From IMG/VR virus record IMGVR_UViG_3300010354_000231, positions 1 through 37,588 of that record: DNA of 37,588 nt. One strand, written 5' to 3'. Origin of the DNA: a virus. Position 1 is the first letter of the stretch, and each line of letters begins with the position of its first letter. The position numbers and the translations under genes were made by a program. Below the pieces are notes generated by a model. It was not told where the DNA came from and searched no databases. It was given only the letters and a program-made list of their open reading frames with translations. Positions 5,488-14,436 of the stretch are shown here, piece after piece.

Positions 5488-6201
5488 TCAACGATAGAAC
5501 CAATAACATCCTTTCCAAGTATATTTGTGTGGATGATTTAATGATTTACGACATCCCGCATCATATCCATTACCTAATTCTCTACCTGCAGATCTAATAC
5601 TTGGAAAGGTATAGCGAATACGATTTGTAATCTTATCAACGCCATAGATTGGATGACTTGTAGTTTTATCTTCAAGTTTAATAATGCGATGCCCTTTTAC
5701 TTTCCATCCATGCTTCAATGCACGAGAAAGATTTGAAGCAAGAATACCAAACTCCTGGGCACATTCAGTTAGACTATTATATTCTTTTTCTTCTAAAGTA
5801 TTCACATCAATTGCTTTTAATTTAATACAATGATGCTTACCATCACCTAATGTAGTAAAGGTATTCTGATAAGGTCTTTTTACACGTTTTATTGATTCTT
5901 TAATTGGTTCTTCTTCTATAATACCAGGAGATAGATTATAACCATCATTATAAGCATCATATTGTTCTATCCAATAAGATTCTCTTTTATTCAATAACGA
6001 TTCAGAACATTCTTCTATAATTTTAATACGAAACTTATCTAATCCATATCTACGCATATCTTTGTATAATGGATCAGCATTCATTCTACTGGACTGTTGT
6101 ATGTGTTCTTTCCATACTTTATTCAGTTCTAAGATGGATTGACCCACGTAATACTTACCAGTTTCTTGATTATAGATTGAATAGATGATTCCTTGATTCA
6201 T
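5488..6201 (-). CDS. GIY-YIG homing endonuclease with NUMOD1-like repeats
   Basis: 237 residues. The N-terminal nuclease domain shows GIIYSIYNQETGKYYVGQS (residues 4-22, the GIY...YVG form of the motif), then the helix DMRRYGLDKFRIKIIEE and the catalytic-Glu region RESYWIEQY (about 73-81). The C-terminal half holds two DNA-binding-like modules, SLTECAQEFGILASNLSRAL and SIRSAGRELG followed by a YTWKGCYWFYR end, as in NUMOD1 helix-turn-helix repeats. Such free-standing nucleases cut phage DNA at an intron-less or empty site and spread by repair. This is the only clear minus-strand gene in the window, placed between the early gene block and the repeat region. Its stop touches the stop of the upstream gene with no spacer. 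Confidence 0.9.
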   Translation of the reverse strand: MNQGIIYSIYNQETGKYYVGQSILELNKVWKEHIQQSSRMNADPLYKDMRRYGLDKFRIKIIEECSESLLNKRESYWIEQYDAYNDGYNLSPGIIEEEPIKESIKRVKRPYQNTFTTLGDGKHHCIKLKAIDVNTLEEKEYNSLTECAQEFGILASNLSRALKHGWKVKGHRIIKLEDKTTSHPIYGVDKITNRIRYTFPSIRSAGRELGNGYDAGCRKSLNHPHKYTWKGCYWFYR

Positions 6202-6335: not shown

Positions 6336-6435
6336 ATATGGGATTTTGTAAGTAAATGAGAGATCTTTTGATTTAATGTGAGATTTTATAGAATAATGTG
6401 AGATCTTGTAAGTAAATGTGAGATTTTATAGTGAT
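6336..6435 (+). repeat. Five tandem 20-bp repeats (iteron-like)
   Basis: Units begin at 6336, 6356, 6376, 6396 and 6416, exactly 20 bp apart. Best consensus is ATGTGAGATTTTRTAAGTAA. Units 3-5 share ATGTGAGATYTTRTA perfectly; unit 1 differs at few positions and unit 2 is the most diverged. A two-helical-turn period would put bound proteins on one face of the DNA, as in iteron origins or operator arrays. Confidence 0.8.
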
Positions 6436-6521
6436 CTTGGCTTGCGTTCTATCATGAATCCGCGAAAATGTCAAGACCTCCGAAAAACTGTCACGGACCC
6501 CAGACATAAAAACACAGAGGG

Positions 6522-6550
6522 TTGACAAAATACTCATAGGGTCTTATAGT
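6522..6550 (+). promoter_or_regulatory. Consensus sigma70 promoter of a short transcript
   Basis: TTGACA at 6522-6527, 17-nt spacer, TATAGT at 6545-6550. The predicted start near 6557 lies only 12 nt before a terminator stem, so the product would be a very short RNA. Confidence 0.75.
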
Positions 6551-6556
6551 GTATTT

Positions 6557-6616
6557 GTGGGTGGGGAAAAGATCTAGACTAGATGCTCTACAAAGTCTAG
6601 TCAAGATCTTTTTTTT
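6557..6616 (+). ncRNA. Candidate ~60-nt phage small RNA
   Basis: Predicted from a consensus promoter (6522-6550) and a strong intrinsic terminator ending at 6616. The RNA would have a short G-rich 5' tail (GTGGGTGGGG) and a long hairpin with a 12-nt loop. Its 5' stem arm is complementary to CTAG leader elements ahead of genes at 8344 and 11156. It could be a base-pairing regulator, a decoy or an R-loop primer for replication. Expression is not shown. The start is approximate. Confidence 0.45.
6569..6616 (+). terminator. Strong intrinsic terminator
   Basis: Stem arms AAGATCTAGACTAGA (6569-6583) and TCTAGTCAAGATCTT (6596-6610) pair with one mismatch in 15, loop of 12 nt, then eight T (6609-6616). 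A second perfect complement of the first ten bases of the 5' arm lies at 6619-6628 and could form a competing structure. Confidence 0.8.
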
Positions 6617-6641
6617 CTTCTAGATCTTATTCGTGTATCAG

Positions 6642-6732
6642 TCAACTAGATTATTCAACTAGATTATTCAACTAGATTATCATCATATCACAGTTTTATT
6701 ATATCAATCATATCATAAGTCAACTAGATTAT
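6642..6732 (+). repeat. 13-bp repeat TCAACTAGATTAT, three in tandem plus one
   Basis: Perfect copies at 6642-6654, 6655-6667, 6668-6680 and, after a 39-nt AT-rich gap, 6720-6732. The block is AT-rich and lacks coding potential. Three tandem AT-rich 13-mers next to iterons recall DNA-unwinding elements of replication origins, although the sequence differs from the E. coli oriC 13-mers. Confidence 0.8.
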
Positions 6733-6758
6733 TCTGTTATCATCATAATCATTCATAA

Positions 6759-6810
6759 AATCTAGTAGAGATCATATACATACATCATAATTAAAATCTA
6801 GTCGAGACAC
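6759..6810 (+). repeat. Two CTAG leader-type elements
   Basis: AATCTAGTAGAGATCAT at 6759-6775 and AATCTAGTCGAGACAC at 6795-6810. Related copies precede the genes at 8344 (8296-8313) and 11156 (11141-11158). Confidence 0.6.
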
Positions 6811-6816
6811 TCACAG

Positions 6817-6856
6817 AACTGGCACACTTGACATCTCATCTAGATTTTCTTATACT
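6817..6856 (+). promoter_or_regulatory. Consensus promoter with TGGCACA motif
   Basis: AACTGGCACA at 6817-6826, then TTGACA at 6828-6833, a 17-nt spacer and TATACT at 6851-6856. The best match to sigma70 consensus in the window. Here the upstream motif lies 25 nt from the -10, closer than in the other cassettes. Confidence 0.8.
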
Positions 6857-6882
6857 GTTCACATAGTTTCTCAGGAGTTCTT

Positions 6883-7056
6883 ATGGTCAGTCCTTATCTT
6901 GCTGCTCAAAAAACTAAGTTCAGAGTCACACTGGAATTGGAAGTACTAGAAGACTTTGATCCCCATCAAATTGATTGGGCAAAAGTTCTCGATCTGCAAG
7001 GGAATGAAACAGTAGACTCTTATGTTGAGAATCTATCAGCACCAGATCGTTGGTGA
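6883..7056 (+). CDS. Hypothetical small protein (57 aa)
   Basis: ATG 6883 has a good AGGAG ribosome site at 6873-6877 and a consensus promoter, so this is likely a strongly expressed early gene. The protein contains a strand-like KFRVTLELEVLEDFDPHQIDW and ends LSAPDRW. The pattern suggests a small alpha/beta fold. It is a single-gene transcript, closed by a terminator at 7080. Function unknown. Confidence 0.75.
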   Translation: MVSPYLAAQKTKFRVTLELEVLEDFDPHQIDWAKVLDLQGNETVDSYVENLSAPDRW

Positions 7057-7079
7057 AATTATATCTCAGTTTATCTTAT

Positions 7080-7116
7080 AACTCCTCAGTCTATCACAAG
7101 ATTGGGGAGTTTTTTC
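7080..7116 (+). terminator. Intrinsic terminator
   Basis: AACTCC (7080-7085) pairs with GGAGTT (7106-7111), followed by a T run. The large 20-nt loop makes it weaker than the terminator at 6569. Confidence 0.55.
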
Positions 7117-7134
7117 TTATGTGGACACTTAAAA

Positions 7135-7180
7135 AACTGGTACATGAATTCCCCAATATTGCTTGATTATCCCGTATATT
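7135..7180 (+). promoter_or_regulatory. Promoter cassette: motif plus -10, weak -35
   Basis: AACTGGTACA at 7135-7144, TATATT at 7175-7180 (31 nt from motif end to -10). The -35 position (CCCAAT, 7152) is not recognisable, so activity may depend on the upstream motif. No GC hairpin here. Confidence 0.5.
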
Positions 7181-7205
7181 AATAAGGTCCCAAGCAATTC
7201 CACTC

Positions 7206-7373
7206 ATGAGAGAGTTCAGAATTAAAGTTGAAACAAATGATGGTTGCAAGACAATTTGGTATGAAAAGTCCAAAGCAAAAAATGCTTCTTCAATTATTTG
7301 TGAAAGGGTCACTAATCAACTAATGGGATTGAACCTAAAAAGAGTTGAAGTTGATCTTGTGGGGGCAGTCTGA
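7206..7373 (+). CDS. Hypothetical small basic protein (55 aa)
   Basis: ATG 7206 lies 25 nt after the -10 of its cassette. The protein (MREFRIKVETNDGCKTIWYE...) looks like a beta hairpin, then a helix (SKAKNASSIICERVTNQL) and a final strand (NLKRVEVDLVGAV), a compact beta-beta-alpha-beta arrangement. It is basic and could bind nucleic acid, though no motif proves it. The next cassette begins 2 nt after the stop. Confidence 0.7.
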   Translation: MREFRIKVETNDGCKTIWYEKSKAKNASSIICERVTNQLMGLNLKRVEVDLVGAV

Positions 7374-7374
7374 G

Positions 7375-7420
7375 AAGTGGCACAGGGGCAGTTGACAGAT
7401 GCTGCCCCATCCTTTAAATT
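7375..7420 (+). promoter_or_regulatory. Promoter cassette with -35 inside hairpin loop
   Basis: AAGTGGCACA at 7375-7384; stem GGGGCAG (7385-7391) and CTGCCCC (7402-7408); TTGACA at 7392-7397 lies in the loop; 17-nt spacer; TAAATT at 7415-7420. Confidence 0.7.
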
Positions 7421-7442
7421 ACTTGTGTTCCTGAGAGATCTC

Positions 7443-7649
7443 ATGATTTTTGCCATCTCCAAAATCAACAACTGCACGTATACTTTGGATGCAAACAATC
7501 AGCGGGTTTTGATGTATGCTCCGCTTCTGCCTGATGGTTCATACGAAACCGCAGGATCTGCCTATGATTGGGTAGAGTGGGACCGTCTGGATGATGATGC
7601 TCTGGAAGAAGCAGACCGCATCCATAAACTGCTTCTGGCAGAGGTGTGA
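7443..7649 (+). CDS. Hypothetical small protein (68 aa)
   Basis: ATG 7443 chosen over an upstream GTG at 7377 because the promoter -10 lies at 7415, between the two. The product reads as two strands (IFAISKINNCTYTLDANNQRVLMYAPL, with turns), a linker with a conserved-looking DWVEWDRL, and an acidic C-terminal helix (DDDALEEADRIHKLLLAEV). No family recognised. Single-gene unit between two promoter cassettes. Confidence 0.65.
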   Translation: MIFAISKINNCTYTLDANNQRVLMYAPLLPDGSYETAGSAYDWVEWDRLDDDALEEADRIHKLLLAEV

Positions 7650-7658
7650 CACTCTAAG

Positions 7659-7703
7659 AACTGTCACATGTGTCCTGGGCATGACCCTAAACTGCCCTAT
7701 TAT
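7659..7703 (+). promoter_or_regulatory. Promoter cassette, weak -35
   Basis: AACTGTCACA at 7659-7668 and TATTAT at 7698-7703, 30 nt from motif end to -10. The -35 position (CTGGGC, 7675) is poor. This places the next start at 7728 rather than 7668. Confidence 0.5.
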
Positions 7704-7727
7704 TCATTTGTTCACCACCGAACTCCA

Positions 7728-8234
7728 ATGAGCATCACTCTCACTTCCAACTGGCAAGAAGTTCACCCTGAACTTGTGGGTGATATTGAGAATCTGATTG
7801 ATGAAGGTTATGATCTGGATGATATTCTCCAGTTCATTGATGTTTATGAAACTGAAAACTTTGATTATTGTCAGGAATTTCTTGACATCAAAGCAGCAAC
7901 AGATGCTCGTAATTGTGAGATTGATGAATTCATTGAAAAGTATGATTTTGATGATTTTATCAACTATTACGTTCAGTATTATGAACTGAGCGAAAACTAT
8001 TGCGAAGATGCTGTAGATGCTTACATTGAGTGTTACGGCATTGATTATCTGAATTCCTTTGAAGATTCCTATGAAGGATCTTTCAATGATCATGAGGAAT
8101 TCATTGATAATTACCTGGAAAATTACGGTTCTGATATTCCTTCGTGGATCGTGATTGATTATGATGCAACATGGGAACATTCTCTGCGTCATGATTATTC
8201 TGAGCAAAACGGATTTTATTTCCGTGATAACTGA
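7728..8234 (+). CDS. ardA: ArdA-like antirestriction protein
   Basis: 168 residues from ATG 7728, matching the usual ArdA length. The in-frame ATG at 7668 lies upstream of the predicted -10. The sequence is extremely acidic, with Asp/Glu spread along helices (DIENLIDEGYDLDDILQFID; CEIDEFIEKYDFDDFINYY), as expected for a protein that mimics DNA. The C-terminal third has the ArdA-type order F-D-Y-G-F-(D)-EFI, then YGSDIPSWIVIDYDATW and a DYSEQNGFYFR end. ArdA proteins bind type I restriction-modification enzymes in place of DNA and block restriction and often methylation. The phage would need it early after entry. Assignment rests on pattern and composition. Confidence 0.75.
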   Translation: MSITLTSNWQEVHPELVGDIENLIDEGYDLDDILQFIDVYETENFDYCQEFLDIKAATDARNCEIDEFIEKYDFDDFINYYVQYYELSENYCEDAVDAYIECYGIDYLNSFEDSYEGSFNDHEEFIDNYLENYGSDIPSWIVIDYDATWEHSLRHDYSEQNGFYFRDN

Positions 8235-8243
8235 GAACATCTA

Positions 8244-8319
8244 GACTAGATATGCGTGATGTGCCAGTCATCAAACTGGCACATCTAGTTCAAAAAATCT
8301 AGTCGAGATCATGTATTCT
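8244..8319 (+). promoter_or_regulatory. Nested inverted repeat with motif and extended -10 promoter
   Basis: Inner stem GATGTGCCAGT (8258-8268) with ACTGGCACATC (8275-8285), perfect over 11 bp. Outer arms GACTAGAT (8244-8251) and ATCTAGTC (8297-8304). The motif AACTGGCACA (8274-8283) forms part of the stem and lies 31 nt before TATTCT (8314-8319), which has an upstream TG. Confidence 0.6.
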
Positions 8320-8343
8320 AATCTAGTTCACCTCTGAACCATC

Positions 8344-8481
8344 ATGAACACCGAACAGTTTTATTCTCTTTGGGAAAAGTTTGCACTCTCTTCAATTGTT
8401 GACAATCTCCCAGAAGATGTAGAAAAGTTCTGCGAAGATCATGAAATCACAGTTGATTATTTCATTCAGGAGTTTATCTGA
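8344..8481 (+). CDS. Small acidic helical protein (45 aa)
   Basis: ATG 8344 follows the nested hairpin and a CTAG leader element. Product MNTEQFYSLWEKFALSSIVD, then NLPEDVEKFCEDHEITVDYFIQEFI: two or three short helices, acidic. The TGATG overlap with the next gene supports translation. A tiny frame (ATG 8311, eight codons) lies in its leader. No family recognised. Confidence 0.6.
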   Translation: MNTEQFYSLWEKFALSSIVDNLPEDVEKFCEDHEITVDYFIQEFI

Positions 8482-8702
8482 TGGCACTCTCTAATCAAAC
8501 AATCAACAATCTTGCAGTTGCATTAACTCCTGAGGTTATCAACACAATCTATTCCGATGAACGTTGGATAGATTTTATGTGTGAGATTGTTCCTGAGATT
8601 GTATCAGAAAAATTAGGTTCTGATGACATAGATCTTGTGGTTGAGATTGCACAATGTATTTCTGATAATATCTTACTCACACCATATAAAAAACTTTCTT
8701 GA
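8481..8702 (+). CDS. Hypothetical helical protein (73 aa)
   Basis: Start overlaps the previous stop by one base (TGATG), so translation is probably coupled. The product is acidic and helical (LAVALTPEVINTIYSDERWIDFM; IVPEIVSEKLGSDDIDLVVEIAQC). An AGGAG at 8468 serves as ribosome site. A terminator follows at 8766. Function unknown. Confidence 0.7.
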   Translation: MALSNQTINNLAVALTPEVINTIYSDERWIDFMCEIVPEIVSEKLGSDDIDLVVEIAQCISDNILLTPYKKLS

Positions 8703-8765
8703 GAAAAAGAATAATTCTTATTTGTTTGCTTTTCTTTTCATTCTTTACAGAAAGCACCAAACAAT

Positions 8766-8790
8766 GGGGGGCACGTTCCCCCTTTCTTAT
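8766..8790 (+). terminator. Intrinsic terminator after the 8344-8702 pair
   Basis: GGGGG (8766-8770) pairs with CCCCC (8778-8782), followed by TTTCTTAT. The following sequence to 8802 is AT-rich and holds nothing recognisable. Confidence 0.6.
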
Positions 8791-8802
8791 TATAATTTAA
8801 TA

Positions 8803-8864
8803 ATTATTTCAAAGCTGCTTCGGTGACGATGTATTGTCGTCCTCAGGGATACCCCTCCCCTCCT
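8803..8864 (+). repeat. Two-copy intergenic element, copy 1
   Basis: Starts ATTATTTCAA and ends with a block TCAGGG-TACCCC-CCCCTCCT (8843-8864) that matches copy 2 (11603-11624) at 20 of 22 positions. Between them the copies are alignable with scattered differences (GGTG, CGA). The tail CCCCTCCT resembles an anti-Shine-Dalgarno sequence. No ORF is shared. From 8865 to 8925 the sequence is C-rich without a gene. Confidence 0.6.
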
Positions 8865-8925
8865 CTGGTTTCCAATATTATAAACCCCTCCCCCTCATGG
8901 GGGTGCCAGGTGGTGCCACTTTCTG

Positions 8926-8970
8926 GACTGTCCACCAGCGGTGCCTAGGTGCCCCTGGAAGCGCCATACT
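8926..8970 (+). promoter_or_regulatory. Promoter cassette, degenerate
   Basis: GACTGTCCAC at 8926-8935 is a weak match to the upstream motif, 30 nt before CATACT (8965-8970). The -35 position is poor. GCCATACTGAT is shared with the cassette at 10858. Confidence 0.4.
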
Positions 8971-8995
8971 GATGGAGTCCTGAGGGATTTACCCC

Positions 8996-9241
8996 ATGAT
9001 CATCCAACAGATTGGCAGCAACCAAACGGAACTCATGCTGGCAGATGGGACTGAGATCCTGATCTCCTACGCTACCCCTGTTGCTGCCCGCATCCCTGGA
9101 AGGGGATGGGTCCGCACTGCTCACAAGTGGAGCAGCACCACCACCAAACACATTAACAAGTGGTTGGTGAATAAGATTGGGCGGATTGATTGTGTGCCCG
9201 CAGTAGATCAGTGGGAACTCGATAAACTGATCGCCTTCTGA
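8996..9241 (+). CDS. Conserved small phage protein, DUF8033-like (81 aa)
   Basis: ATG 8996 follows the promoter by 26 nt. The sequence has a strand-rich start (IIQQIGSNQTELMLADGTEILISYATPVAARI), a basic middle (KWSSTTTKHINKWL) and a terminal helix. From memory the order GSNQTEL-DGT-ISY-TPVAA-KWS-TT-HINKWL is that of a small phage and bacterial domain of unknown function (DUF8033). No enzymatic residues are evident. The stop overlaps the next motif (AACTGGCACA begins at 9241). Confidence 0.65.
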   Translation: MIIQQIGSNQTELMLADGTEILISYATPVAARIPGRGWVRTAHKWSSTTTKHINKWLVNKIGRIDCVPAVDQWELDKLIAF

Positions 9242-9284
9242 ACTGGCACACGGGGGGCATCCTGCCCCCCTGATCTGCTACACT
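9241..9284 (+). promoter_or_regulatory. Promoter cassette with GC hairpin
   Basis: AACTGGCACA at 9241-9250; stem GGGGGGCA (9252-9259) and TGCCCCCC (9263-9270); TACACT at 9279-9284, 29 nt after the motif. The -35 position (9256-9261) falls across the hairpin apex. Leader reads GAACGAGTCAACC. Confidence 0.6.
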
Positions 9285-9309
9285 GAACGAGTCAACCAAG
9301 GGAACCCCC

Positions 9310-9492
9310 ATGGCAATCCTGAGCACCCCCAGCGCCATCCGTAAGGTCTTCTACGCTAACCTGGACCTCCGTGCCCGTGTTGGTGATGAGATCACCGCGA
9401 TCAGTGTTGGATCCGCCTACATTGGCGCCTACCGTACCCAGCAGGGCATCGAAATCTGCTGGGGAATCCTGAACGAAAACGAGGCGCTGTGA
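9310..9492 (+). CDS. Hypothetical small protein (60 aa)
   Basis: ATG 9310 sits 25 nt after the -10 with AAGGGAA upstream. The product starts MAILSTPSAIRKVFYANLDL and then has a strand-rich RVGDEITAISVGSAYIGAYR and GIEICWGIL, suggesting a small beta barrel. GC-rich, C-ending codons appear from here on, unlike the first 8 kb. Function unknown. Confidence 0.65.
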   Translation: MAILSTPSAIRKVFYANLDLRARVGDEITAISVGSAYIGAYRTQQGIEICWGILNENEAL

Positions 9493-9501
9493 CAGTCTGA
9501 C

Positions 9502-9546
9502 AAGTGGCACTGAGGGATAGACACCCTCTGCCACTTCCTTTATACT
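9502..9546 (+). promoter_or_regulatory. Promoter cassette, -35 exactly in loop
   Basis: AAGTGGCA (9502-9509) pairs with TGCCACTT (9529-9536) and GAGGG (9512-9516) with CCCTC (9524-9528). The 7-nt loop holds TAGACA (9518-9523), 17 nt before TATACT (9541-9546). The motif itself is one stem arm. Confidence 0.75.
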
Positions 9547-9572
9547 GATTCTGTTGAGTTCTTCAACCCATC

Positions 9573-9707
9573 ATGACTTTCTCCTATTTTGACAAGGATC
9601 AAATCGAAGAAGTTTCCTACTTTGATTTTGTGGATGAAATGACTGAGGAAATTGAGTATGATGACCTCGCAGAAGGTCTCCCCCTTGACACTAACTACGA
9701 TTTCTGA
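9573..9707 (+). CDS. Small acidic SYFD-type protein, paralog of gene at 12119 (44 aa)
   Basis: ATG 9573 follows the promoter by 26 nt. The product contains QIEEVSYFDFVDEMTEEIE, closely matching QIEEFSYFDMVEEMCESIR in the gene at 12119, so the two arose by duplication. Very acidic with Tyr/Phe; likely helical. This copy lacks the Asp/Tyr-rich C-terminal extension of the other. The stop overlaps the next ATG (TGATG). Function unknown. Confidence 0.6.
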   Translation: MTFSYFDKDQIEEVSYFDFVDEMTEEIEYDDLAEGLPLDTNYDF

Positions 9708-9808
9708 TGTTTGATCTCCTGTTCTCCGAGGGTGTTATCATTTGGGATGGTGACACCCCCATTCTTTCCGAGGATTCCTCCGATGACGACTCTGACTCTA
9801 ACTCCTGA
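9707..9808 (+). CDS. Tiny acidic protein (33 aa)
   Basis: ATG 9707 overlaps the preceding TGA. The product starts MFDLLFSEGVIIWDGDTPIL and ends in a Ser/Asp run (SEDSSDDDSDSNS), an acidic disordered tail. The stop/start coupling argues that it is translated. The next gene starts 26 nt before its end in another frame. No family recognised. Confidence 0.5.
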   Translation: MFDLLFSEGVIIWDGDTPILSEDSSDDDSDSNS

Positions 9809-9932
9809 CGAAATCTGTGCTCTGTTGGAACTCATCGAATTCCATGATGATTGGGAGGAAGTGAGTGAGATTGTGGGTGCAGATGTGCCCGCATTGTATG
9901 AAAAACTTCACGACATGTTGCCCAAAGGATGA
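9783..9932 (+). CDS. Small LTxxEL-type helical protein (49 aa)
   Basis: ATG 9783 used because the upstream part of this frame belongs to the previous gene. Product MTTLTLTPDEICALLELIEF, then HDDWEEVSEIVGADVPALYEKLHDML: two to three helices. The opening resembles the genes at 4408 and 12922. Overlaps the next gene by 4 nt (ATGA). Confidence 0.6.
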   Translation: MTTLTLTPDEICALLELIEFHDDWEEVSEIVGADVPALYEKLHDMLPKG

Positions 9933-10066
9933 ACAATTTTCTCACGGGTGTCGTTGTTGGCATCCTCGTTGCTACAGTTGGTTTCAATGGGGTTGCTGAA
10001 CTTGGCAACCGTGCAGTTCAATCAATCCAATCATTTGCACTGAACAATGCTGTTTCAAGTCACTGA
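9929..10066 (+). CDS. Conserved small membrane protein (45 aa)
   Basis: ATGA overlap at 9929. Residues 4-24 (FLTGVVVGILVATVGFNGVA) are a Gly/Val-rich transmembrane helix, followed by an amphipathic tail (NRAVQSIQSFALNN). I recall small cyanophage proteins of the form FL-GV-VG-VGF-G-A-(M) with the same topology. Role unknown; perhaps membrane takeover. The next gene overlaps its end by 20 nt in another frame. Confidence 0.6.
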   Translation: MNNFLTGVVVGILVATVGFNGVAELGNRAVQSIQSFALNNAVSSH

Positions 10067-10241
10067 AATTGAGTTTGATTTTGATGATGAAGACCTTCAT
10101 CCTGAAGAAAAGTCTGACATCATCGATGATACTGTTGGTCAAATCTGGGAGGCAGATGATGAAGATGATCTCGTAGAAGAGATCACCTGTGCTACAGGTT
10201 GGTGCATCAAATCCATCGATTACCGTCACGTTCTTTCCTAA
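10047..10241 (+). CDS. Conserved acidic cyanophage-type protein (64 aa)
   Basis: ATG 10047 lies inside the previous gene. Product shows VTEIEFDFDDEDLHPEEK, then VGQIWEADDEDDLVEEIT and a C-terminal TGWCIKSIDYRHVLS. This order (FDF-DD, WEA-DEDDLVEEIT-ATGWCIKSIDY) is one I recall across T4-like cyanophage genomes. The predicted fold is a beta-alpha-beta mini-domain with a strongly acidic face. TAA/ATG overlap with the next gene. Confidence 0.7.
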   Translation: MLFQVTEIEFDFDDEDLHPEEKSDIIDDTVGQIWEADDEDDLVEEITCATGWCIKSIDYRHVLS

Positions 10242-10516
10242 TGTACCGCACACTTTCTGAACTCAAGCGATCAGTAGATCAACTGATTGAACAACAGGGC
10301 GAGGATGCACCTTGCGCTGCATTTGTATTCACAAAGGAGGATGTTTTCTATTATCCTATCGGTGAGGATGGTTTTGAGGATCTTGATACTCAAGAGCGTC
10401 TAAGTGACTTTGATACTGATGACGTTCTCACTGAACTTGGTGGATGTGATTACATCTACGAACAAGTCTTTGAGATCATTGATGATGAGGTAAAACGTGT
10501 TCGTAACAAACAATGA
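10241..10516 (+). CDS. Conserved cyanophage-type protein (91 aa)
   Basis: ATG 10241 shares its A with the previous stop. N-terminal helix (YRTLSELKRSVDQLIEQQG), then strand-rich APCAAFVFTKEDVFYYPI and an acidic C-terminal half (LSDFDTDDVLTELGGCDYIYEQ). I recall similar small proteins as conserved hypotheticals in cyanophages. Probably part of the same co-translated group with the neighbours at 9573-10808. Confidence 0.65.
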   Translation: MYRTLSELKRSVDQLIEQQGEDAPCAAFVFTKEDVFYYPIGEDGFEDLDTQERLSDFDTDDVLTELGGCDYIYEQVFEIIDDEVKRVRNKQ

Positions 10517-10572
10517 TTGAACTTTTTGCCTCGATTGTTCTACGCTATCACTTTCATCATTACTTCCAATGA
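10513..10572 (+). CDS. Possible 19-aa peptide between two ATGA junctions
   Basis: ATG 10513 overlaps the previous stop and its own TGA (10570-10572) overlaps the next ATG at 10569, so it bridges its neighbours exactly. Product MIELFASIVLRYHFHHYFQ is hydrophobic then His/aromatic-rich. Either a real micropeptide or a coupling device that carries ribosomes to the next gene. Short length keeps the call weak. Confidence 0.35.
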   Translation: MIELFASIVLRYHFHHYFQ

Positions 10573-10808
10573 CGAACAACGCTTACACCTGGACTGACGA
10601 TTTCAGCGCACTTGTTGAGAAGTATGCTGAGTTTGTGATGGATTGCATGGACATGAAAACCATGGAACAATTCGTCTTTGATACACTTGTTCAGTCTTAC
10701 AATGACTACACTGAGGAAGAACTTATCAACGAAATCCGTGATCATCAGGGTGATGAATGGTTCGAAGATCATGGCGTTGAGTTAAAAGAATCACCCGATG
10801 CCGTGTGA
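10569..10808 (+). CDS. Conserved cyanophage-type acidic protein (79 aa)
   Basis: Starts at an ATGA junction. The product has DFSALVEKYAEFVMDCMDM, then MEQFVFDTLVQSY and YTEEELINEIRDHQGDEWFEDHG: three acidic helices. The EKYAEFVM-CMD and YTEEELI-EI segments recall a small protein frequent in T4-like cyanophages. Last gene of the 9573-10808 unit; the next cassette starts 9 nt after the stop. Confidence 0.7.
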   Translation: MTNNAYTWTDDFSALVEKYAEFVMDCMDMKTMEQFVFDTLVQSYNDYTEEELINEIRDHQGDEWFEDHGVELKESPDAV

Positions 10809-10817
10809 CGGTTAAGC

Positions 10818-10863
10818 AAGTGGCACACGGGGGGTTGTGATGCCCCCTGATCCGTGCCATACT
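10818..10863 (+). promoter_or_regulatory. Promoter cassette, -35 in hairpin loop
   Basis: AAGTGGCACA at 10818-10827; GGGGGG (10829-10834) pairs with CCCCC (10843-10847); TTGTGA (10835-10840) lies in the loop; 17-nt spacer; CATACT at 10858-10863. A second leader stem, CAGGGG (10872-10877) with CCCCTG (10890-10895), follows. Confidence 0.7.
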
Positions 10864-10919
10864 GATTGCATCAGGGGGAGGGAAACCAACCCCTGAATCC
10901 CACAACCCCCAACGTTACC

Positions 10920-11078
10920 ATGCGTTACATTCCTTCCACCGACCGTGCCGTGAGCATTGACGAAATTGCCGAGCAGTGCCGTCAAGCGATCCTGCGGGCA
11001 AACCAGGAACCCGACTTCTATGACGAAGTGTGTCAGTTTGAAGAGTGGGACGAAGAGATTGCCGCTGCCGTGTGGTAA
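10920..11078 (+). CDS. Hypothetical small acidic protein (52 aa)
   Basis: ATG 10920 chosen because the frame upstream of it is leader sequence with a second hairpin and starts only with TTG. Product MRYIPSTDRAVSIDEIAEQC, then RQAILRANQEPDFYDEVCQFEEWDEEIAAAVW: helical, ending in an acidic Trp-containing helix. The stop is followed directly by a CTAG element and hairpin. No family recognised. Confidence 0.65.
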   Translation: MRYIPSTDRAVSIDEIAEQCRQAILRANQEPDFYDEVCQFEEWDEEIAAAVW

Positions 11079-11083
11079 TCTAG

Positions 11084-11129
11084 TCTAGGTACGGGGGACA
11101 CCTCAAGTCCCCCACAATCAACCCATCAA
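11084..11129 (+). promoter_or_regulatory. Degenerate promoter cassette with GC hairpin
   Basis: Stem GGGGGAC (11093-11099) with GTCCCCC (11107-11113). The geometry would put the -35 in the loop (11101-11106) and a -10 at 11124 (CATCAA), but both hexamers are poor. May act mainly as terminator or RNA structure. Confidence 0.35.
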
Positions 11130-11140
11130 ATCTAGTTTAA

Positions 11141-11158
11141 AATCTAGTCGAAATCATG
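11141..11158 (+). repeat. CTAG leader element touching a start codon
   Basis: AATCTAGTCGAAATCATG; the final ATG is the start of the gene at 11156. Bases 11142-11155 complement the 5' stem arm of the candidate small RNA at 12 of 14 positions. Confidence 0.5.
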
Positions 11159-11302
11159 ACCAAAGACGTTTACGTTTCTCTTCTCCGTCAAGGTTCTAAT
11201 GGCAACCAAATTCTTGAAATTCTTGACAATCTTATTAGTGGGGAAGATGGTGATGCAAATGTTGCAGAACTGAACCCCACTCTTGACCCCATTGAGTTCT
11301 GA
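11156..11302 (+). CDS. Hypothetical small acidic protein (48 aa)
   Basis: ATG 11156 lies at the end of a CTAG leader element with no Shine-Dalgarno, which makes translation control by that element plausible. Product MTKDVYVSLLRQGSNGNQIL, then EILDNLISGEDGDANVAELNPTLDPIEF: two helices and an acidic tail. The following gene starts 4 nt later, so they probably form a pair. Function unknown. Confidence 0.6.
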   Translation: MTKDVYVSLLRQGSNGNQILEILDNLISGEDGDANVAELNPTLDPIEF

Positions 11303-11306
11303 TCCT

Positions 11307-11516
11307 ATGGAATTTGCAACCCTGAGTAACATCGATCTCATGATCGCTGAGATTCAAGGTAAGGTTACAGTTACCCGACTTCCTACAGTCAAACCGAAAA
11401 AGTCTGACCTGGTGATGTCGAGAATTGGTGGCGCTAAGACAAGATTCTACGCTGCCACTGGTTCTGGTCGCAATGGTAGGGAGCAACGTATCTCAAACCG
11501 TTTGGCACAAAAGTAA
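11307..11516 (+). CDS. Hypothetical small basic protein (69 aa)
   Basis: ATG 11307 preferred over 11283, which would overlap the previous gene. N-terminal helix (MEFATLSNIDLMIAEIQG), then KVTVTRLPTVKPKKSDLVMS and a Gly/Arg-rich end (GGAKTRFYAATGSGRNGREQ). The basic C-terminus suggests nucleic-acid contact, without a motif to prove it. A strong terminator follows 6 nt after the stop. Confidence 0.65.
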   Translation: MEFATLSNIDLMIAEIQGKVTVTRLPTVKPKKSDLVMSRIGGAKTRFYAATGSGRNGREQRISNRLAQK

Positions 11517-11522
11517 CACAAA

Positions 11523-11549
11523 GGAGAGGCACAATGCCTCTCTTTTTTT
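11523..11549 (+). terminator. Strong intrinsic terminator
   Basis: GAGAGGC (11524-11530) pairs with GCCTCTC (11536-11542), 5-nt loop, then seven T. Ends the 11156-11516 unit. Confidence 0.85.
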
Positions 11550-11563
11550 ATACTTTTATTCCT

Positions 11564-11624
11564 ATTATTTCAAGGCAGGTTAGGTGTCGACCGTTTGCAT
11601 CATCAGGGCTACCCCGCCCCTCCT
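11564..11624 (+). repeat. Two-copy intergenic element, copy 2
   Basis: Second copy of the element at 8803-8864, again directly after a terminator and ahead of a cassette. The conserved core is 11603-11624. From 11625 to 11673 there is GC-rich sequence with no gene. Confidence 0.6.
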
Positions 11625-11673
11625 TCGCTTGTGCCCTTAGATTAGACCCTAGGGCACCCCATACCCGCTGCGC

Positions 11674-11733
11674 TGTGCCAGTTCAGAAGGTGGCACAACC
11701 CCCCTAGACCTGCCCCCCGTGATGCCCTACATT
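11674..11733 (+). promoter_or_regulatory. Promoter cassette with TGTGCCA/TGGCACA inverted repeat
   Basis: TGTGCCA (11674-11680) pairs with TGGCACA (11691-11697). AGGTGGCACA ends 31 nt before TACATT (11728-11733). TAGACC (11705-11710) is the -35, 17 nt away. Confidence 0.6.
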
Positions 11734-11781
11734 GCTGTGCATGGGAGGCAAACGGACCTCCCGCAACCCCGAAAAACCGAA

Positions 11782-12024
11782 ATGTCCAACATCGTCCGCC
11801 GTACCTTCCTCCCTATCAACAGCAGCGCAATCGCCTACGTTGATATCGAGAACGCCCCGCAAGTTCAGATCGCTTTCCAATCGAATCCTCAGAAAGTTTA
11901 TACTTTCCAGGGTTCTGAAAGTGTCGTTGACGAACTGCAATCGATTCTGAACGCCGAAGAGGTTCAGGGTCTGGGTTCTCTGGTTGCCGCTGCCCGCCGC
12001 AGTGGTGATCTGCAGGAAGTGTGA
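11782..12024 (+). CDS. Small beta-rich protein, possibly KTSC-like (80 aa)
   Basis: ATG 11782 chosen over ATG 11719, which lies upstream of the predicted -10. Product MSNIVRRTFLPINSSAIAYV, then DIENAPQVQIAFQSNPQKVYTFQG and a helix SVVDELQSIL, the strand-strand-helix order of KTSC-type domains (small, found in phage and bacteria, role unclear). It ends in an Ala/Arg-rich tail. The KTSC label is a weak pattern match. Confidence 0.65.
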   Translation: MSNIVRRTFLPINSSAIAYVDIENAPQVQIAFQSNPQKVYTFQGSESVVDELQSILNAEEVQGLGSLVAAARRSGDLQEV

Positions 12025-12026
12025 CG

Positions 12027-12071
12027 GATTGTTACGGGGGGACTGGCAACGGTCCCCCTATCCCCTAAGAT
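12027..12071 (+). promoter_or_regulatory. Promoter cassette, GC hairpin
   Basis: GATTGTTACG (12027-12036) fits a RAYTGTYACR variant of the motif, 30 nt before TAAGAT (12066-12071). Stem GGGGGAC (12037-12043) with GTCCCCC (12052-12058); CTGGCA (12043-12048) is the -35 at the loop. Leader stem GCGG (12080-12083) with CCGC (12096-12099) follows. Confidence 0.55.
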
Positions 12072-12118
12072 ACATTCAAGCGGGAGGGAAACCAACCGCC
12101 AAACCACAACCCCCCGAA

Positions 12119-12301
12119 ATGATCATGGATTCTTTTCTCTATGATGAGCAGATCGAAGAGTTCTCCTACTTCGATATGGTTGAGGAAATGTGTGAATCTA
12201 TCCGCGAAACTTGTGAGGATGACTGGTCATCCTATTATGATGATGATCAGGCACTCGAAGAGTATTCTCTAGAGTGTGCCTACGGTCCCGAAGAGTACTG
12301 A
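12119..12301 (+). CDS. Acidic SYFD-type protein, paralog of gene at 9573 (60 aa)
   Basis: ATG 12119 (or 12125, two codons later). Shares EQIEEFSYFDMVEEM with its paralog and adds a strongly acidic, Tyr-rich C-terminus (CEDDWSSYYDDDQALEEYSL). The charge pattern is like DNA-mimic proteins, though no such family is recognised. Leader has a conserved hairpin. GC-rich upstream DNA but more A/T-rich coding sequence than its neighbours, which suggests it moved or duplicated separately. Confidence 0.65.
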   Translation: MIMDSFLYDEQIEEFSYFDMVEEMCESIRETCEDDWSSYYDDDQALEEYSLECAYGPEEY

Positions 12302-12308
12302 TCACAAA

Positions 12309-12335
12309 GGGGGGAGAAATCCCCCCTAATTTTTC
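12309..12335 (+). terminator. GC hairpin with T tract
   Basis: GGGGGGA (12309-12315) pairs with TCCCCCC (12320-12326), GAAA-type loop, then TAATTTTT. A motif-like ACTGATCACA (12297-12306) precedes it, but no good -10 is found at the expected distance. Confidence 0.65.
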
Positions 12336-12348
12336 ACCCTTACGAATC

Positions 12349-12483
12349 ATGATTGAAACTCTCCTGGCAACTGCAATCCTCGTCGGTTCCGTTGAGATCG
12401 GACCTGGAATCTATCAGGAACAGTATCTCACAAATGTCGACAATGTTCCCGTCCTGATTGAGTTCGAAACTGACGTAGAGTAG
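12349..12483 (+). CDS. Small protein with hydrophobic N-terminus (44 aa)
   Basis: ATG 12349. Residues 2-14 (IETLLATAILVGS) are hydrophobic but short for a full membrane span, followed by VEIGPGIYQEQYLTNVDNVP and an acidic end. I recall cyanophage small proteins opening in this way (VEIGPGIY-QYL). It may be membrane-associated or simply a small beta protein. No clear promoter of its own; possibly read through from 12066. Confidence 0.55.
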   Translation: MIETLLATAILVGSVEIGPGIYQEQYLTNVDNVPVLIEFETDVE

Positions 12484-12496
12484 AGATAAGATTTCG

Positions 12497-12539
12497 AAAT
12501 GTAACGGGACCGCGAAACGGTCCCGCGATGCCCTAGGAT
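12497..12539 (+). promoter_or_regulatory. Promoter cassette, GC hairpin
   Basis: AAATGTAACG (12497-12506) is a degenerate motif, 28 nt before TAGGAT (12534-12539). Stem CGGGACCG (12505-12512) with CGGTCCCG (12518-12525). Leader stem GCGGGA (12548-12553) with TCCCGC (12560-12565) follows. Confidence 0.5.
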
Positions 12540-12581
12540 TCTCTCAAGCGGGACAGGGATCCCGCCTCACCCCCTCTGATC

Positions 12582-12839
12582 ATGTTCGCTTCCATCATCC
12601 GCGCTGCCATCCGCACCCGCCTGATCAACGACGGTCCCCAGACCTGCTCGGATCTGGTTCGCGCCATGGGTCTCGATCCCCGCCGTCACAAGGGCACGAT
12701 TCACGCTCTCATGGTTGACCTCGAGCGCGATGGCGTCCTAGGTGCTACCCGCTCCGATAACGGCAAGCGCGATCTGTGGTTTATCGTCCCGACCGAGATC
12801 CGCAAGCGGGACCGCCTGATCGCTGCCCTGGCAGTGTGA
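12582..12839 (+). CDS. Winged-helix-like DNA-binding protein (85 aa)
   Basis: ATG 12582. The order is helix (SIIRAAIRTRLIN), then DGPQTCSDLVRAMGL, a second helix of HTH type, then RRHKGTIHALMVDLERDGVL as recognition-helix region, then a beta wing (GATRSDNGKRDLWFIV) and a C-terminal helix. This layout is typical of winged-helix transcription regulators (MarR/GntR-like size and topology); the specific family is not clear. Very GC-rich with C-ending codons. As the only obvious DNA-binding regulator in the region, it is a candidate for controlling the promoter cassettes. Confidence 0.65.
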   Translation: MFASIIRAAIRTRLINDGPQTCSDLVRAMGLDPRRHKGTIHALMVDLERDGVLGATRSDNGKRDLWFIVPTEIRKRDRLIAALAV

Positions 12840-12848
12840 CGGATTGTT

Positions 12849-12895
12849 AAGGTTCACAGGGGGGACCGAGAATCCCCCCTCCCCCCGACTACAGT
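12849..12895 (+). promoter_or_regulatory. Promoter cassette, GC hairpin
   Basis: AAGGTTCACA (12849-12858), 32 nt before TACAGT (12890-12895). Stem GGGGGGA (12859-12865) with TCCCCCC (12873-12879); the -35 position (CGAGAA, 12867) is in the loop. Leader AACGAAGTCAACC. Confidence 0.55.
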
Positions 12896-12921
12896 AACGA
12901 AGTCAACCGCAAACGACACCG

Positions 12922-13113
12922 ATGCAGATCACCCCCGTGGTTCTCAACCTGACCCCGATGCAACTGGTCATGCTGCAGGATGCGATCTCGTACCGTTACA
13001 ACCAACTGGAATCGGTTGTTAACAACATCGACCTGTATCCCGATCAACCTGCAGACAATCCCGAGCGGGTAACTGCCCTTCGCGATCTGCACCTGCTGCT
13101 CGACCGCTACTGA
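12922..13113 (+). CDS. Small LTxxQL-type helical protein (63 aa)
   Basis: ATG 12922. Product has LNLTPMQLVMLQDAISYRYN, then QLESVVNNIDLYPDQPADNP and a C-terminal RVTALRDLHLLLDRY helix. The start resembles the proteins at 4408 and 9783, suggesting a small duplicated family. GC-rich codons. Single-gene unit between two cassettes. Function unknown. Confidence 0.7.
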   Translation: MQITPVVLNLTPMQLVMLQDAISYRYNQLESVVNNIDLYPDQPADNPERVTALRDLHLLLDRY

Positions 13114-13122
13114 TCACCCTAC

Positions 13123-13159
13123 GGGGAGGGTTGACCTCCTCCCCCTTACCGACTACAAT
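13123..13159 (+). promoter_or_regulatory. Promoter cassette, -35 in hairpin loop
   Basis: GGGGAGG (13123-13129) pairs with CCTCCCC (13138-13144). TTGACC (13131-13136) lies in the loop, 17 nt before TACAAT (13154-13159). Leader TTCGAAGTCAACC. The upstream motif is poor here (CCCTACG). Confidence 0.7.
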
Positions 13160-13184
13160 TTCGAAGTCAACCAACCCGAGACCG

Positions 13185-13367
13185 ATGGCAATTTTCTCCG
13201 CCTGCTCTGACCTCGAAACCCGCGAGATCCGCTGGGTTCCCCGCAAGACCGAGTTTGCCCCGCAGCAGACCTTCGCGGGACAGATCAGCGCCCACGAGGC
13301 ATGGTTCTTCGCCGCTTGCTACCGCGACCGCTATGCTGACGACGTGGTGCCTGTGACATTTAGTTAA
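13185..13367 (+). CDS. Hypothetical small protein (60 aa)
   Basis: ATG 13185, 26 nt after the -10. Product MAIFSACSDLETREIRWVPR, then KTEFAPQQTFAGQISAHEAW and FFAACYRDRYADDVVPVTFS. Mixed strands and a helix, with three scattered Cys. GC-rich with host-like codon choice. The next motif (13366) overlaps its stop. No family recognised. Confidence 0.6.
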   Translation: MAIFSACSDLETREIRWVPRKTEFAPQQTFAGQISAHEAWFFAACYRDRYADDVVPVTFS

Positions 13368-13412
13368 GTTGCACAAGGGGGGGCGCCGATGCCCCCTCTG
13401 ACCGACTACAGT
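13366..13412 (+). promoter_or_regulatory. Promoter cassette, GC hairpin
   Basis: AAGTTGCACA (13366-13375), 32 nt before TACAGT (13407-13412). Stem GGGGGC (13379-13384) with GCCCCC (13391-13396). The -35 position (CGCCGA, 13384) is at the loop and poor. Leader AACGAAGTCAACC is identical to the cassette at 12890. Confidence 0.6.
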
Positions 13413-13440
13413 AACGAAGTCAACCAAAGGGAGAACCCCG

Positions 13441-13599
13441 ATGACCTACGACGTGATCTGCCCCTCCGCCCCCTACGAGAACACCTCCGTTCACGATGAG
13501 GGTAAGGCATACGATCTCTGCTATTCTCTGGCAGAGGATTATGGTTACGCCGAGATCCGAGTTAACAACATTGTCTGGGCAGACTACGATCTGCGATGA
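13441..13599 (+). CDS. Hypothetical small acidic protein (52 aa)
   Basis: ATG 13441, 28 nt after the -10, with AGGGAGA upstream. Product MTYDVICPSAPYENTSVHDE, then GKAYDLCYSLAEDYGYAEIRVNNIVWADYDLR. A helix (EGKAYDLCYSLAEDYG) followed by a strand pair (AEIRVNNIVWADY) is plausible. No domain recognised; single-gene unit. Confidence 0.65.
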   Translation: MTYDVICPSAPYENTSVHDEGKAYDLCYSLAEDYGYAEIRVNNIVWADYDLR

Positions 13600-13605
13600 T
13601 AATGT

Positions 13606-13638
13606 AGGGGGAGACAATCCTCCCCCTCTCTCTACTCT
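13606..13638 (+). promoter_or_regulatory. Promoter cassette, degenerate
   Basis: Stem AGGGGGA (13606-13612) with TCCCCCT (13621-13627). GAGACA (13611-13616), 16-nt spacer, TACTCT (13633-13638). No upstream motif. The leader carries CACTCTCA-type repeats. Confidence 0.4.
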
Positions 13639-13666
13639 CACTGTTCACTCTCACTCTCATCGAATC

Positions 13667-13927
13667 ATGGCACTCGACTACAACGGTTGGACAAACTACG
13701 AGACCTGGAATGTTGCTCTGTGGATTCAGAATGACGAATTCCTCTACAATACTGCAAAGGCATGTGTAGAGTTCTGCGGTGACAATGAGACCCCGTTTGA
13801 GAAGTTCGTCCGCTGCATGACAGATGGTATGATTGGGCGACATCTTGTGCAAACTAAAGATGGCGTCCGCTGGGATTCTGCCTGCATTAACGACCGTCAG
13901 ATCAACGAAATGATGATGGAATTGTGA
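13667..13927 (+). CDS. Conserved NGWTNYETWNVALW protein, DUF7249-like (86 aa)
   Basis: ATG 13667; the upstream extension of this frame crosses the promoter and previous gene and is rejected. The N-terminal block YNGWTNYETWNVALWIQNDE (residues 5-24) is a highly characteristic motif that I recall from a small domain of unknown function in phages and bacteria (DUF7249). A Cys-containing helix, a VRCMTDGM segment and a terminal helix follow. Its conservation suggests a shared early function. A terminator closes the block. Confidence 0.75.
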   Translation: MALDYNGWTNYETWNVALWIQNDEFLYNTAKACVEFCGDNETPFEKFVRCMTDGMIGRHLVQTKDGVRWDSACINDRQINEMMMEL

Positions 13928-13934
13928 TCATAAT

Positions 13935-13958
13935 GGGGGCACACTTCTGCCCCCTTTT
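13935..13958 (+). terminator. Strong terminator closing the GC-rich block
   Basis: GGGGGCA (13935-13941) pairs with TGCCCCC (13948-13954), followed by TTTT. Confidence 0.8.
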
Positions 13959-14187
13959 CTATAACGAATGGCGTGTAATCTGTGCGTTCTCAATGTGCGT
14001 GAAAGACAGTGATTTCATTGATTAGTATACCTTATGGGCGGCGCCCTGCCGTTTAAAAAATCGAAACTACCCTAACCTACAGAGGTGACAAAACGCGAGA
14101 GTTATAATAGACTGGAAAAAATTCCGTGGGGGGTATAAAGGTCTTAAAACCCCGCTCAGAAAAAAATTTTCCCGCAAAAATTTTCTT
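13959..14187 (+). other. Gene-free junction with a possible promoter
   Basis: 229 bases between the GC-rich early block and the late side. It contains GGCGGCGCCCTGCC (14039-14052), a perfect TATAAT at 14103-14108 with a poor -35, and a run of A-rich and T-rich sequence before ATG 14188. No ORF is credible. Confidence 0.45.
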
Positions 14188-14436
14188 ATGAAACCCCTCC
14201 GTAATATCCCGAGTTCCGCAATGAGAGCAAAACAAACCCCATATTGGAGTTTCTGGAAGGTTGTCTTGGCGGGGTGGTTAATACGCTACCCTCGGAATTT
14301 TTTTGTAGGAATCCTATTCATAGTATTCCTCATATATACTGCGGTGACTTCGGCGTTCCATGGAAACACTTCAAATGACGGAAAAAATATACCACATATA
14401 CGCAAAGAAACAGTGCATATACCACAGTCTCAGTGA
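14188..14436 (+). CDS. Small membrane protein (82 aa)
   Basis: ATG 14188 (alternative ATG 14221). The sequence WSFWKVVLAGWLIRYPRNFF, then VGILFIVFLIYTAV gives one clear transmembrane helix (about residues 39-54) and a preceding amphipathic aromatic segment. The polar tail after about residue 58 overlaps the next gene in another frame. Inner-membrane location is likely; role unknown. The combination recalls small cyanophage membrane proteins. Confidence 0.55.
   Translation: MKPLRNIPSSAMRAKQTPYWSFWKVVLAGWLIRYPRNFFVGILFIVFLIYTAVTSAFHGNTSNDGKNIPHIRKETVHIPQSQ

Follow-up and report, generated by a model that had tools for sequence, protein, structure and literature searches.

Hairpins centred on the -35 position: candidate terminator/promoter cassettes between small genes of T4-like cyanophages

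Why do the gaps between small phage genes repeatedly hold a GC-rich hairpin whose loop lies where a promoter would have its -35 box? The question is raised by the window analysed here, a 37,588-base virus fragment (record IMGVR_UViG_3300010354_000231), in which an initial annotation had described six intergenic hairpins as combined terminator/promoter cassettes with the -35 box in the loop. We consider it likely, from the sequences compared below, that these cassettes are terminator/promoter composites of the kind called PeSLs, and that in cyanophages a particular register puts the loop of the terminator at the -35 position of the next promoter. The evidence consists of the geometry of the cassettes, the enrichment of -35 sequences in their loops, covariation of the stems at promoters of the gene hli, the association of hairpin and U-tract at those promoters, and the swapping of gene modules at cassettes.

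The sequence of the window marks it as part of a T4-like cyanophage genome. The open reading frame (ORF) at 17102-19072 corresponds to T4 gp6, with best tblastn matches of 45-55% identity in T4-like phages of Synechococcus and Prochlorococcus, and Pfam confirms gp25 at 16700 and gp6 (PF04965, PF21379) as well as gp8. The cassettes lie in a block of small unknown genes directly upstream of gp25/gp6, which we identify, from its position compared with S-CAM3 and S-SM2, as the hyperplastic region of T4-like cyanophages. About 12 intergenic GC-rich hairpins are found within 6.6 kb of window sequence, and at least 16 in the relative L008. Searches of the cassette region against phage records by megablast and blastn returned no match, and Rfam gave nothing above the gathering score for 6400-14300.

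Loops at the -35 position in the window and its relatives

At all six sites first named, a GC-rich hairpin is real, the energies of the single hairpins running from -7.9 to -18.5 kcal/mol, and a TANNNT-like -10 hexamer follows each of them, as had been proposed. The -35 claim held in part when the box was scored in the loop at 16-18 nt spacing to the -10: only the sites at 7385, 9502 and 13123 retain a good one. Cassette 1 (7385..7420; like all cassettes and terminators of the window described here, on the plus strand) has the hairpin GGGGCAGT-TGACAGAT-GCTGCCCC (7385-7408), with TTGACA (6/6) in the loop (7392-7397) and, after a spacer of 17, the -10 TAAATT (7415-7420). Cassette 2 (9502..9546) is a two-step hairpin, AAGTGGCA..GAGGG-ATAGACA-CCCTC TGCCACTT, with TAGACA (5/6) in the loop (9518-9523) and the -10 TATACT (9541-9546), while cassette 6 (13123..13159; GGGGAGGG-TTGACC-TCCTCCCC) has TTGACC (5/6; 13131-13136) in the loop and the -10 TACAAT (13154-13159). 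The box is weak in cassette 3 (10829..10863; GGGGGG-TTGTGAT-GCCCCC), with TTGTGA (4/6; 10835-10840) in the loop before CATACT (10858-10863), and in cassette 4 (12036..12071, placed at 12037 by the initial annotation; GGGGGACTG-GCAA-CGGTCCCCC), with CTGGCA (4/6; 12043-12048) before TAAGAT (12066-12071) and a related copy at 12516 (repeat family D12). Cassette 5 (12858..12895, placed at 12859; AGGGGGGA-CCGAGAA-TCCCCCCT, -10 TACAGT at 12890-12895) has no -35, CCGAGA matching at 3/6; a 74-nt paralogue (78%) lies at 13352-13425 (repeat family D5). Folding in context was below shuffles at 7385 (z -3.2), 9502 (z -4.8) and 13123 (z -2.1), and not at 12858 (z -0.6).

Five more GC hairpins of the same kind occupy gene gaps, at 9252, 12505, 13376, 13606 and 13935. 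The first three, which were outside the earlier list, are followed by a -10 and match the -35 at 1-3/6: 9252..9284 (GGGGGGCA-TCC-TGCCCCCC, -10 TACACT at 9279-9284), unchanged in L006, a second contig of the same phage; 12505..12539 (CGGGACCG-CGAAA-CGGTCCCG, -10 TAGGAT at 12534-12539); and 13376..13412, upstream of gene D (AGGGGGGGCGCCGATGCCCCCTCT, -10 TACAGT at 13407-13412). No acceptable -10 follows the hairpin between genes D and E (13606..13627; AGGGGGAG-ACAATC-CTCCCCCT), and none was found at 11093 or at 13935, where the hairpin GGGGGCA-CACTTC-TGCCCCC followed by TTTTCT (13935..13954) is an intrinsic terminator that closes the array. Hence 3 of the 9 scored window hairpins having a -10 carry a -35 of at least 5/6, for which the chance is 1.4% each (binomial about 3e-4 for three good sites, calculated for 10 sites).

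Relatives were gathered by protein and pattern searches, yielding 11 loci with gene B, and the layout pattern TGGCACA-GGGG..CCCC-TANNNT matched at least 120 viral contig stretches. The resulting set holds 254 cassettes from related contigs (204 non-redundant, from 95 loci); its statistics come partly from loci fetched by a pattern requiring GGGG..CCCC and TANNNT, of which the -35 was no part. Contigs L005/L006 and L109 represent the same phage, and L005/L006 were excluded from all counts and L109 from the terminator counts. Over the 254 cassettes the distance from the loop centre to the -10 downstream is 17-21 nt (mode 19), which places the loop where the centre of a -35 hexamer is expected. 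At this position TTGACA ranks first among its 180 letter permutations, with a match of at least 5/6 in 32 of the 204 cassettes (runner-up 16), and TTGAC occurs in 18 loops of the set vs. 0-5 for each of ten other short motifs. Moreover, the cassettes lie between co-directional genes, a median of 13 nt past the stop codon and with a median of 25 nt from the end of the -10 to the ATG; 143 of 194 have an ORF stop just before them and an ATG-initiated ORF just after, an arrangement met at 12% of random places.

Several observations weigh against reading every such cassette as a complete terminator and promoter. A good -35 is absent from 172 of the 204 cassettes; because the loop centre is at the -35 position throughout and a good box is present in 32 (16%), the register is general and the box is found in a minority. 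A U-tract (at least 5 T in 8) follows only about a quarter of the window-type cassettes. Upstream of gene D orthologues the -10 persists and most have the hairpin, with -35 matches of 1-4/6, and at orthologues of gene E the -35 in the loop is mostly not conserved. Upstream regions of mixed orthologues gave hairpins with z<-2 in 10 of 46 cases vs. 8 of 150 controls, a moderate effect. In addition, related sequences are non-independent, in the hli groups too, and P values and counts are indicative only. After gene B, the loop is TTGACC in the window or TTGACT in L012/L016, with different arms and a different downstream gene; here and at hli, the -35 has been kept in the loops of relatives, whereas upstream of D, and mostly of E, it has not, and the refuting condition named in the initial annotation thus receives a divided answer.

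Since most of them lack a U-tract and 172 of 204 lack a good -35, both halves of the cassette may be weak in the window and its closest relatives. The window cassettes, having mostly lost U-tract and -35, would probably be weaker terminators placed before -10-dependent promoters, and window-type cassettes in general are probably worn or relaxed versions of a fused element, weaker at both jobs. A tenable alternative, from which we lean away somewhat, is that window hairpins lacking a U-tract terminate nothing and are instead stabilisers of mRNA 3′ ends or weak pause sites. This would suit the tails of most window cassettes, which are C/T-rich and not T-rich, as well as the presence of separate U-tract terminators in the same region: two with no promoter (7080..7111 and 11520..11546), one with no clear promoter (8766..8782) and one at 12308..12327 (AGGGGGGA-GAAA-TCCCCCCT-AATTTTT). 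Yet stem-loops that lack a U-tract also exist among the PeSLs of phage RB49 (e.g., GGGGATCGGTGATCCCCTATACT), and RB49 PeSL cassettes were reportedly effective terminators in work by Arbiol from 2010.

The fused element and the hli promoters

The clearest form of the element lies outside the window, in S-SM2, S-CAM3, S-PM2, S-CREM1 and many IMG/VR contigs, where a U-tract terminator has TTGAC in its loop and the -10 stands 17 nt on; examples are agcacccTTGACAgggtgctTTTTTATTGCTATAAT (L117), aggggtcTTGACGgacccctTTTTTCATGCCATACT (S-CAM3) and agggcaccTTGACGggtgccctTTTTTCATATAAATT (S-SM2). Collected from the fetched loci regardless of promoters, 923 U-tract intrinsic terminators included 19 with TTGAC in the loop. 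A -10 at 16-18 nt follows 15 of these 19, whereas it follows 145 of the 904 others (Fisher 4e-9). One version of the fused pattern, GGGNCTTGACGNCCCNTTTTT-N7-TAWAMT, matched 46 viral contig stretches; the same pattern with its loop scrambled to TGATC matched no viral contig, and the unscrambled pattern had no match among 84,980 genomes of bacteria and archaea. When the 55 loci obtained in two fused-pattern scans were set against nine T4-like genomes, the best matches of 54 were in T4-like cyanophages. The fused element with its -10 was absent from S-CRM01, Syn9, T4, RB49, KVP40 and the searched part of nt-1. The anatomy that had been proposed, a combined terminator/promoter cassette, is therefore supported by sequence, in the co-directional gaps of the window and in the union of U-tract, loop -35 and -10 in its relatives.

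In S-CAM3, S-SM2 and S-PM2 the fused element precedes the same gene, hli, which offers orthologous sites. Covariation computed on cassettes selected by hairpin prediction is circular and was not used as evidence; 78 hli upstream regions were chosen by protein similarity alone instead. Both -35 and -10 are present in all 78, and pairing around TTGAC was found in 25 of 26 distinct sequences with a U-tract and in 1 of 34 without. Across 15 aligned elements of the six-base-loop subtype (left out were L237, with two extra bases in the loop, and the TTGACG subtype, whose loop has 5 nt), 7 of 8 stem pairs have changed on both sides and 95.8% of cells pair. The covariation score was 0.535 vs. 0.187 ± 0.038 for shuffled alignments (0 of 500), with slid controls at or below 0.157, and TTGAC is invariant while the arms vary. 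Covariation had previously been deduced from paralogous copies within the window; on orthologous sites it was confirmed solely for the cyanophage hli promoter, the orthologues of gene D retaining the -10 and not the -35.

Because all 78 hli regions have both boxes and the hairpin occurs in 1 of 34 lacking a U-tract, promoter function appears independent of the hairpin. The hairpin would thus belong to termination, which speaks against the proposal that supercoiling extrudes a cruciform and so regulates the promoter by hiding or exposing its -35. Perfect GC-rich inverted repeats centred at the -35 position are what such a DNA-level switch would call for, yet we regard it as highly improbable: the hli hairpin follows the U-tract, and hairpin-less promoters keep the same -35 and -10. 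Moreover, among U-tract stems with one mismatch, G.U is more frequent than A.C on the sense strand (27 vs. 15), which weakly favours a hairpin formed in RNA; the hairpins accompanied by a -10 only (8 vs. 5) are too few to inform. Stems of 7-11 bp are, furthermore, short for cruciform extrusion.

Termination and initiation at a complete cassette would probably proceed as follows. On its way out of the upstream gene, host sigma70-type RNA polymerase would transcribe both arms, and the RNA would fold with UUGAC in its loop and be released in the U-tract, inside the 17-nt promoter spacer. In duplex DNA the same loop bases would form the -35 contact, and transcription of the next gene would start shortly before its ATG. 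In this manner about 40-50 bp would suffice to make each small gene a transcription unit of its own.

A separate observation concerns the hairpin-less hli upstream regions (L240-L311), many of which share GTAAAG/CTTTAC-like repeats between and after the promoter boxes (e.g., TTTACA..TATAATGTAACAGTTCTTTACA); these repeats are possibly another control element at plain hli promoters.

Module exchange and neighbouring repeats

Gene order around the cassettes varies among relatives, being A-B-C-D-E in the window, E-A-D-B in L008 and E-D-B in L009 (queries C, X, U, T and S were not used in this comparison). L009-L011 have B-Y, whereas L012-L014 and L016 have B-X-Y, and L015 has B-X and then ends; the extra unit between B and Y is made up of gene X and a single cassette, and the cassette is where the break falls. 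Paralogous cassettes are alike within a genome, over 74 nt. Comparison of these loci shows the cassette to be a homologous junction for the exchange of gene modules. One might go further and suppose that the sequences owe their conservation mainly to a role as recombination junctions in module shuffling, and that the transcription signals are passengers. The reshuffled gene order, the likeness of paralogous cassettes within a genome and the presence or absence of module X with a break at the cassette would all accord with such a role. We nevertheless find it distinctly unlikely as the main reason for their maintenance, given that the arms at hli covary instead of remaining identical, as would be useful for pairing but not for homology.

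A further element, TGTGACxGTN(5-6)ANTGGCACA, stands shortly before the hairpins; at 9488..9511 (plus strand), for example, it is an imperfect 24-bp palindrome that starts within the stop codon of the gene before it. The palindrome, TGTGCCAGT-N6-ACTGGCACA, is found at 7645-7668, 8260-8283, 9488-9511, 10804-10827 and 11674-11697 (families D1 and D3); its left half is often TGTGAC, in which TGA is the preceding stop codon. TGGCACA stands directly before the hairpin in the at least 120 viral contig stretches with the layout pattern, and also before fused elements in S-SM2 and L064. The palindrome may act as an operator, or may form a second hairpin in RNA. A sigma54 reading of TGGCAC was rejected, there being no TTGC at the right distance and cyanobacteria not being known to possess sigma54. 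A CRP-like reading as TGTGA-N6-TCACA was likewise rejected, the half-sites being too distant from each other.

Other repeats and genes of the region may be noted. Repeats based on CTAGTC/CTAGAT (AATCTAGTCGAGATCAT and relatives) lie near gene starts, some abutting the ATG, at 6567-6810, 8233-8309 and 11076-11153, and include a 13-nt tandem unit, AACTAGATTATTC, at 6637-6734. Between the -10 and the ATG, window cassettes and L008 have a conserved untranslated leader (GAAGTCAACC / AGTTCA..CAACC) that is common to otherwise unrelated genes. G+C is 0.45-0.54 at 9-14 kb vs. about 0.28-0.41 in the remaining fragment, which suggests that the block at 9000-14000 was acquired or exchanged from elsewhere. 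The gene at 13667-13927 belongs to the DUF7249 family (PF23907), and its order varies among the shuffled modules of relatives. A lone reverse gene at 5488-6201 (minus strand) encodes a GIY-YIG endonuclease (Pfam PF01541) with weak NUMOD-like matches, probably a homing endonuclease.

Composite cassettes in T4-like phages

PeSLs have reportedly been described in phages RB49/phi1, PST and nt-1, and the view that no phage was known to have such a layout must be narrowed accordingly; the register with the -35 as the loop was found undescribed in the literature examined, from which the original PeSL papers were absent. PeSLs have also been discussed for cyanophage S-PM2, where they were judged sparse (PMC4503421). 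The cassettes described here resemble PeSLs in combining a stem-loop and a sigma70-like promoter in one short intergenic cassette, in being numerous in the hyperplastic regions of T4-type phages, and in marking places where gene modules are exchanged, here through changes of order and a cassette-bounded indel. The early sigma70 promoter of a PeSL would have both boxes; here the -10 is present throughout, and a good -35 in 32 of 204 cassettes, 3 of 9 in the window and all 78 hli regions. The register is where the lineages differ. The cyanophage loop is centred on the -35 (offset 0), whereas in KVP40 and nt-1 the offset is +4 (AAAGGGTTGACANNNGTCAGCCCTTT), with the -35 in the 5′ arm, and in RB49 it is +8 to +11 and +20 to +23, with the hairpin in the spacer or over the -10. 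Because the register differs by lineage, we place the cyanophage element as a PeSL-type cassette in a new register. KVP40 (L003, L157-L162) and nt-1 (L221-L224) were also seen to hold series of near-identical AAAGGGTTGACANNNGTCAGCCCTTT elements, each followed by a -10. Compared with an ordinary intrinsic terminator, the hli-type fused elements share the GC-rich hairpin and U-tract; they differ in that their loop looks like a functional -35 and the spacer of the promoter contains the U-tract, and most window copies differ in lacking a U-tract.

Published work on hosts and phages offers a setting for such elements. Synechococcus elongatus has no Rho, and intrinsic termination is documented there (PMC3219970), while the host's sigma70 RNA polymerase, in unmodified form, is believed to transcribe the early genes of cyanophages (PMC2984593). 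In a 2010 study comparing 16 cyanophages, promoter prediction and terminator prediction relied on different programs, and the parts of it consulted make no mention of a fusion of the two (PMC3037559).

Whether the fusion does anything beyond saving space is a further matter. In a compact genome the loop may be the sole unconstrained 5-6 nt available at that place, and the box may have been packed there passively, with no coupling of termination to restart. We judge the chances of this to be evenly balanced; it is compatible with a PeSL-type composite in a cyanophage register, and denies only an added function of the fusion. Other T4-like phages, with the -35 in the 5′ arm (KVP40, nt-1) or the hairpin in the spacer or over the -10 (RB49), show that the two signals can be packed otherwise. 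Against passive packing, the exact register recurs across many cyanophage loci with differing arms and genes, which argues for a fixed useful design without speaking for coupling itself. After intrinsic termination, polymerase that stays on the DNA is able to begin again at a promoter close by, and the rate is said to vary with how far apart terminator and promoter are (PMC6978380; PMC11347151). This recycling was shown for E. coli RNA polymerase on separate elements, whereas the cyanophage distance is about zero. That the one-piece element couples termination to initiation of the next gene, e.g., hli, with released polymerase restarting at the adjoining promoter, seems to us doubtful.

Taken as a terminator/promoter composite, the cyanophage cassette is a clean case of one DNA segment holding two signals, one read as an RNA hairpin and the other as duplex DNA, and it indicates that the register in which terminator and promoter are fused varies among T4-like lineages. 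The cassette would provide a natural substrate for asking whether terminated polymerase restarts at an adjoining promoter. Furthermore, recognising it helps to delimit transcription units gene by gene in the small-gene regions, which are poorly annotated, of these abundant cyanobacterial viruses; among the units is the one headed by hli, a photosynthesis-related gene.

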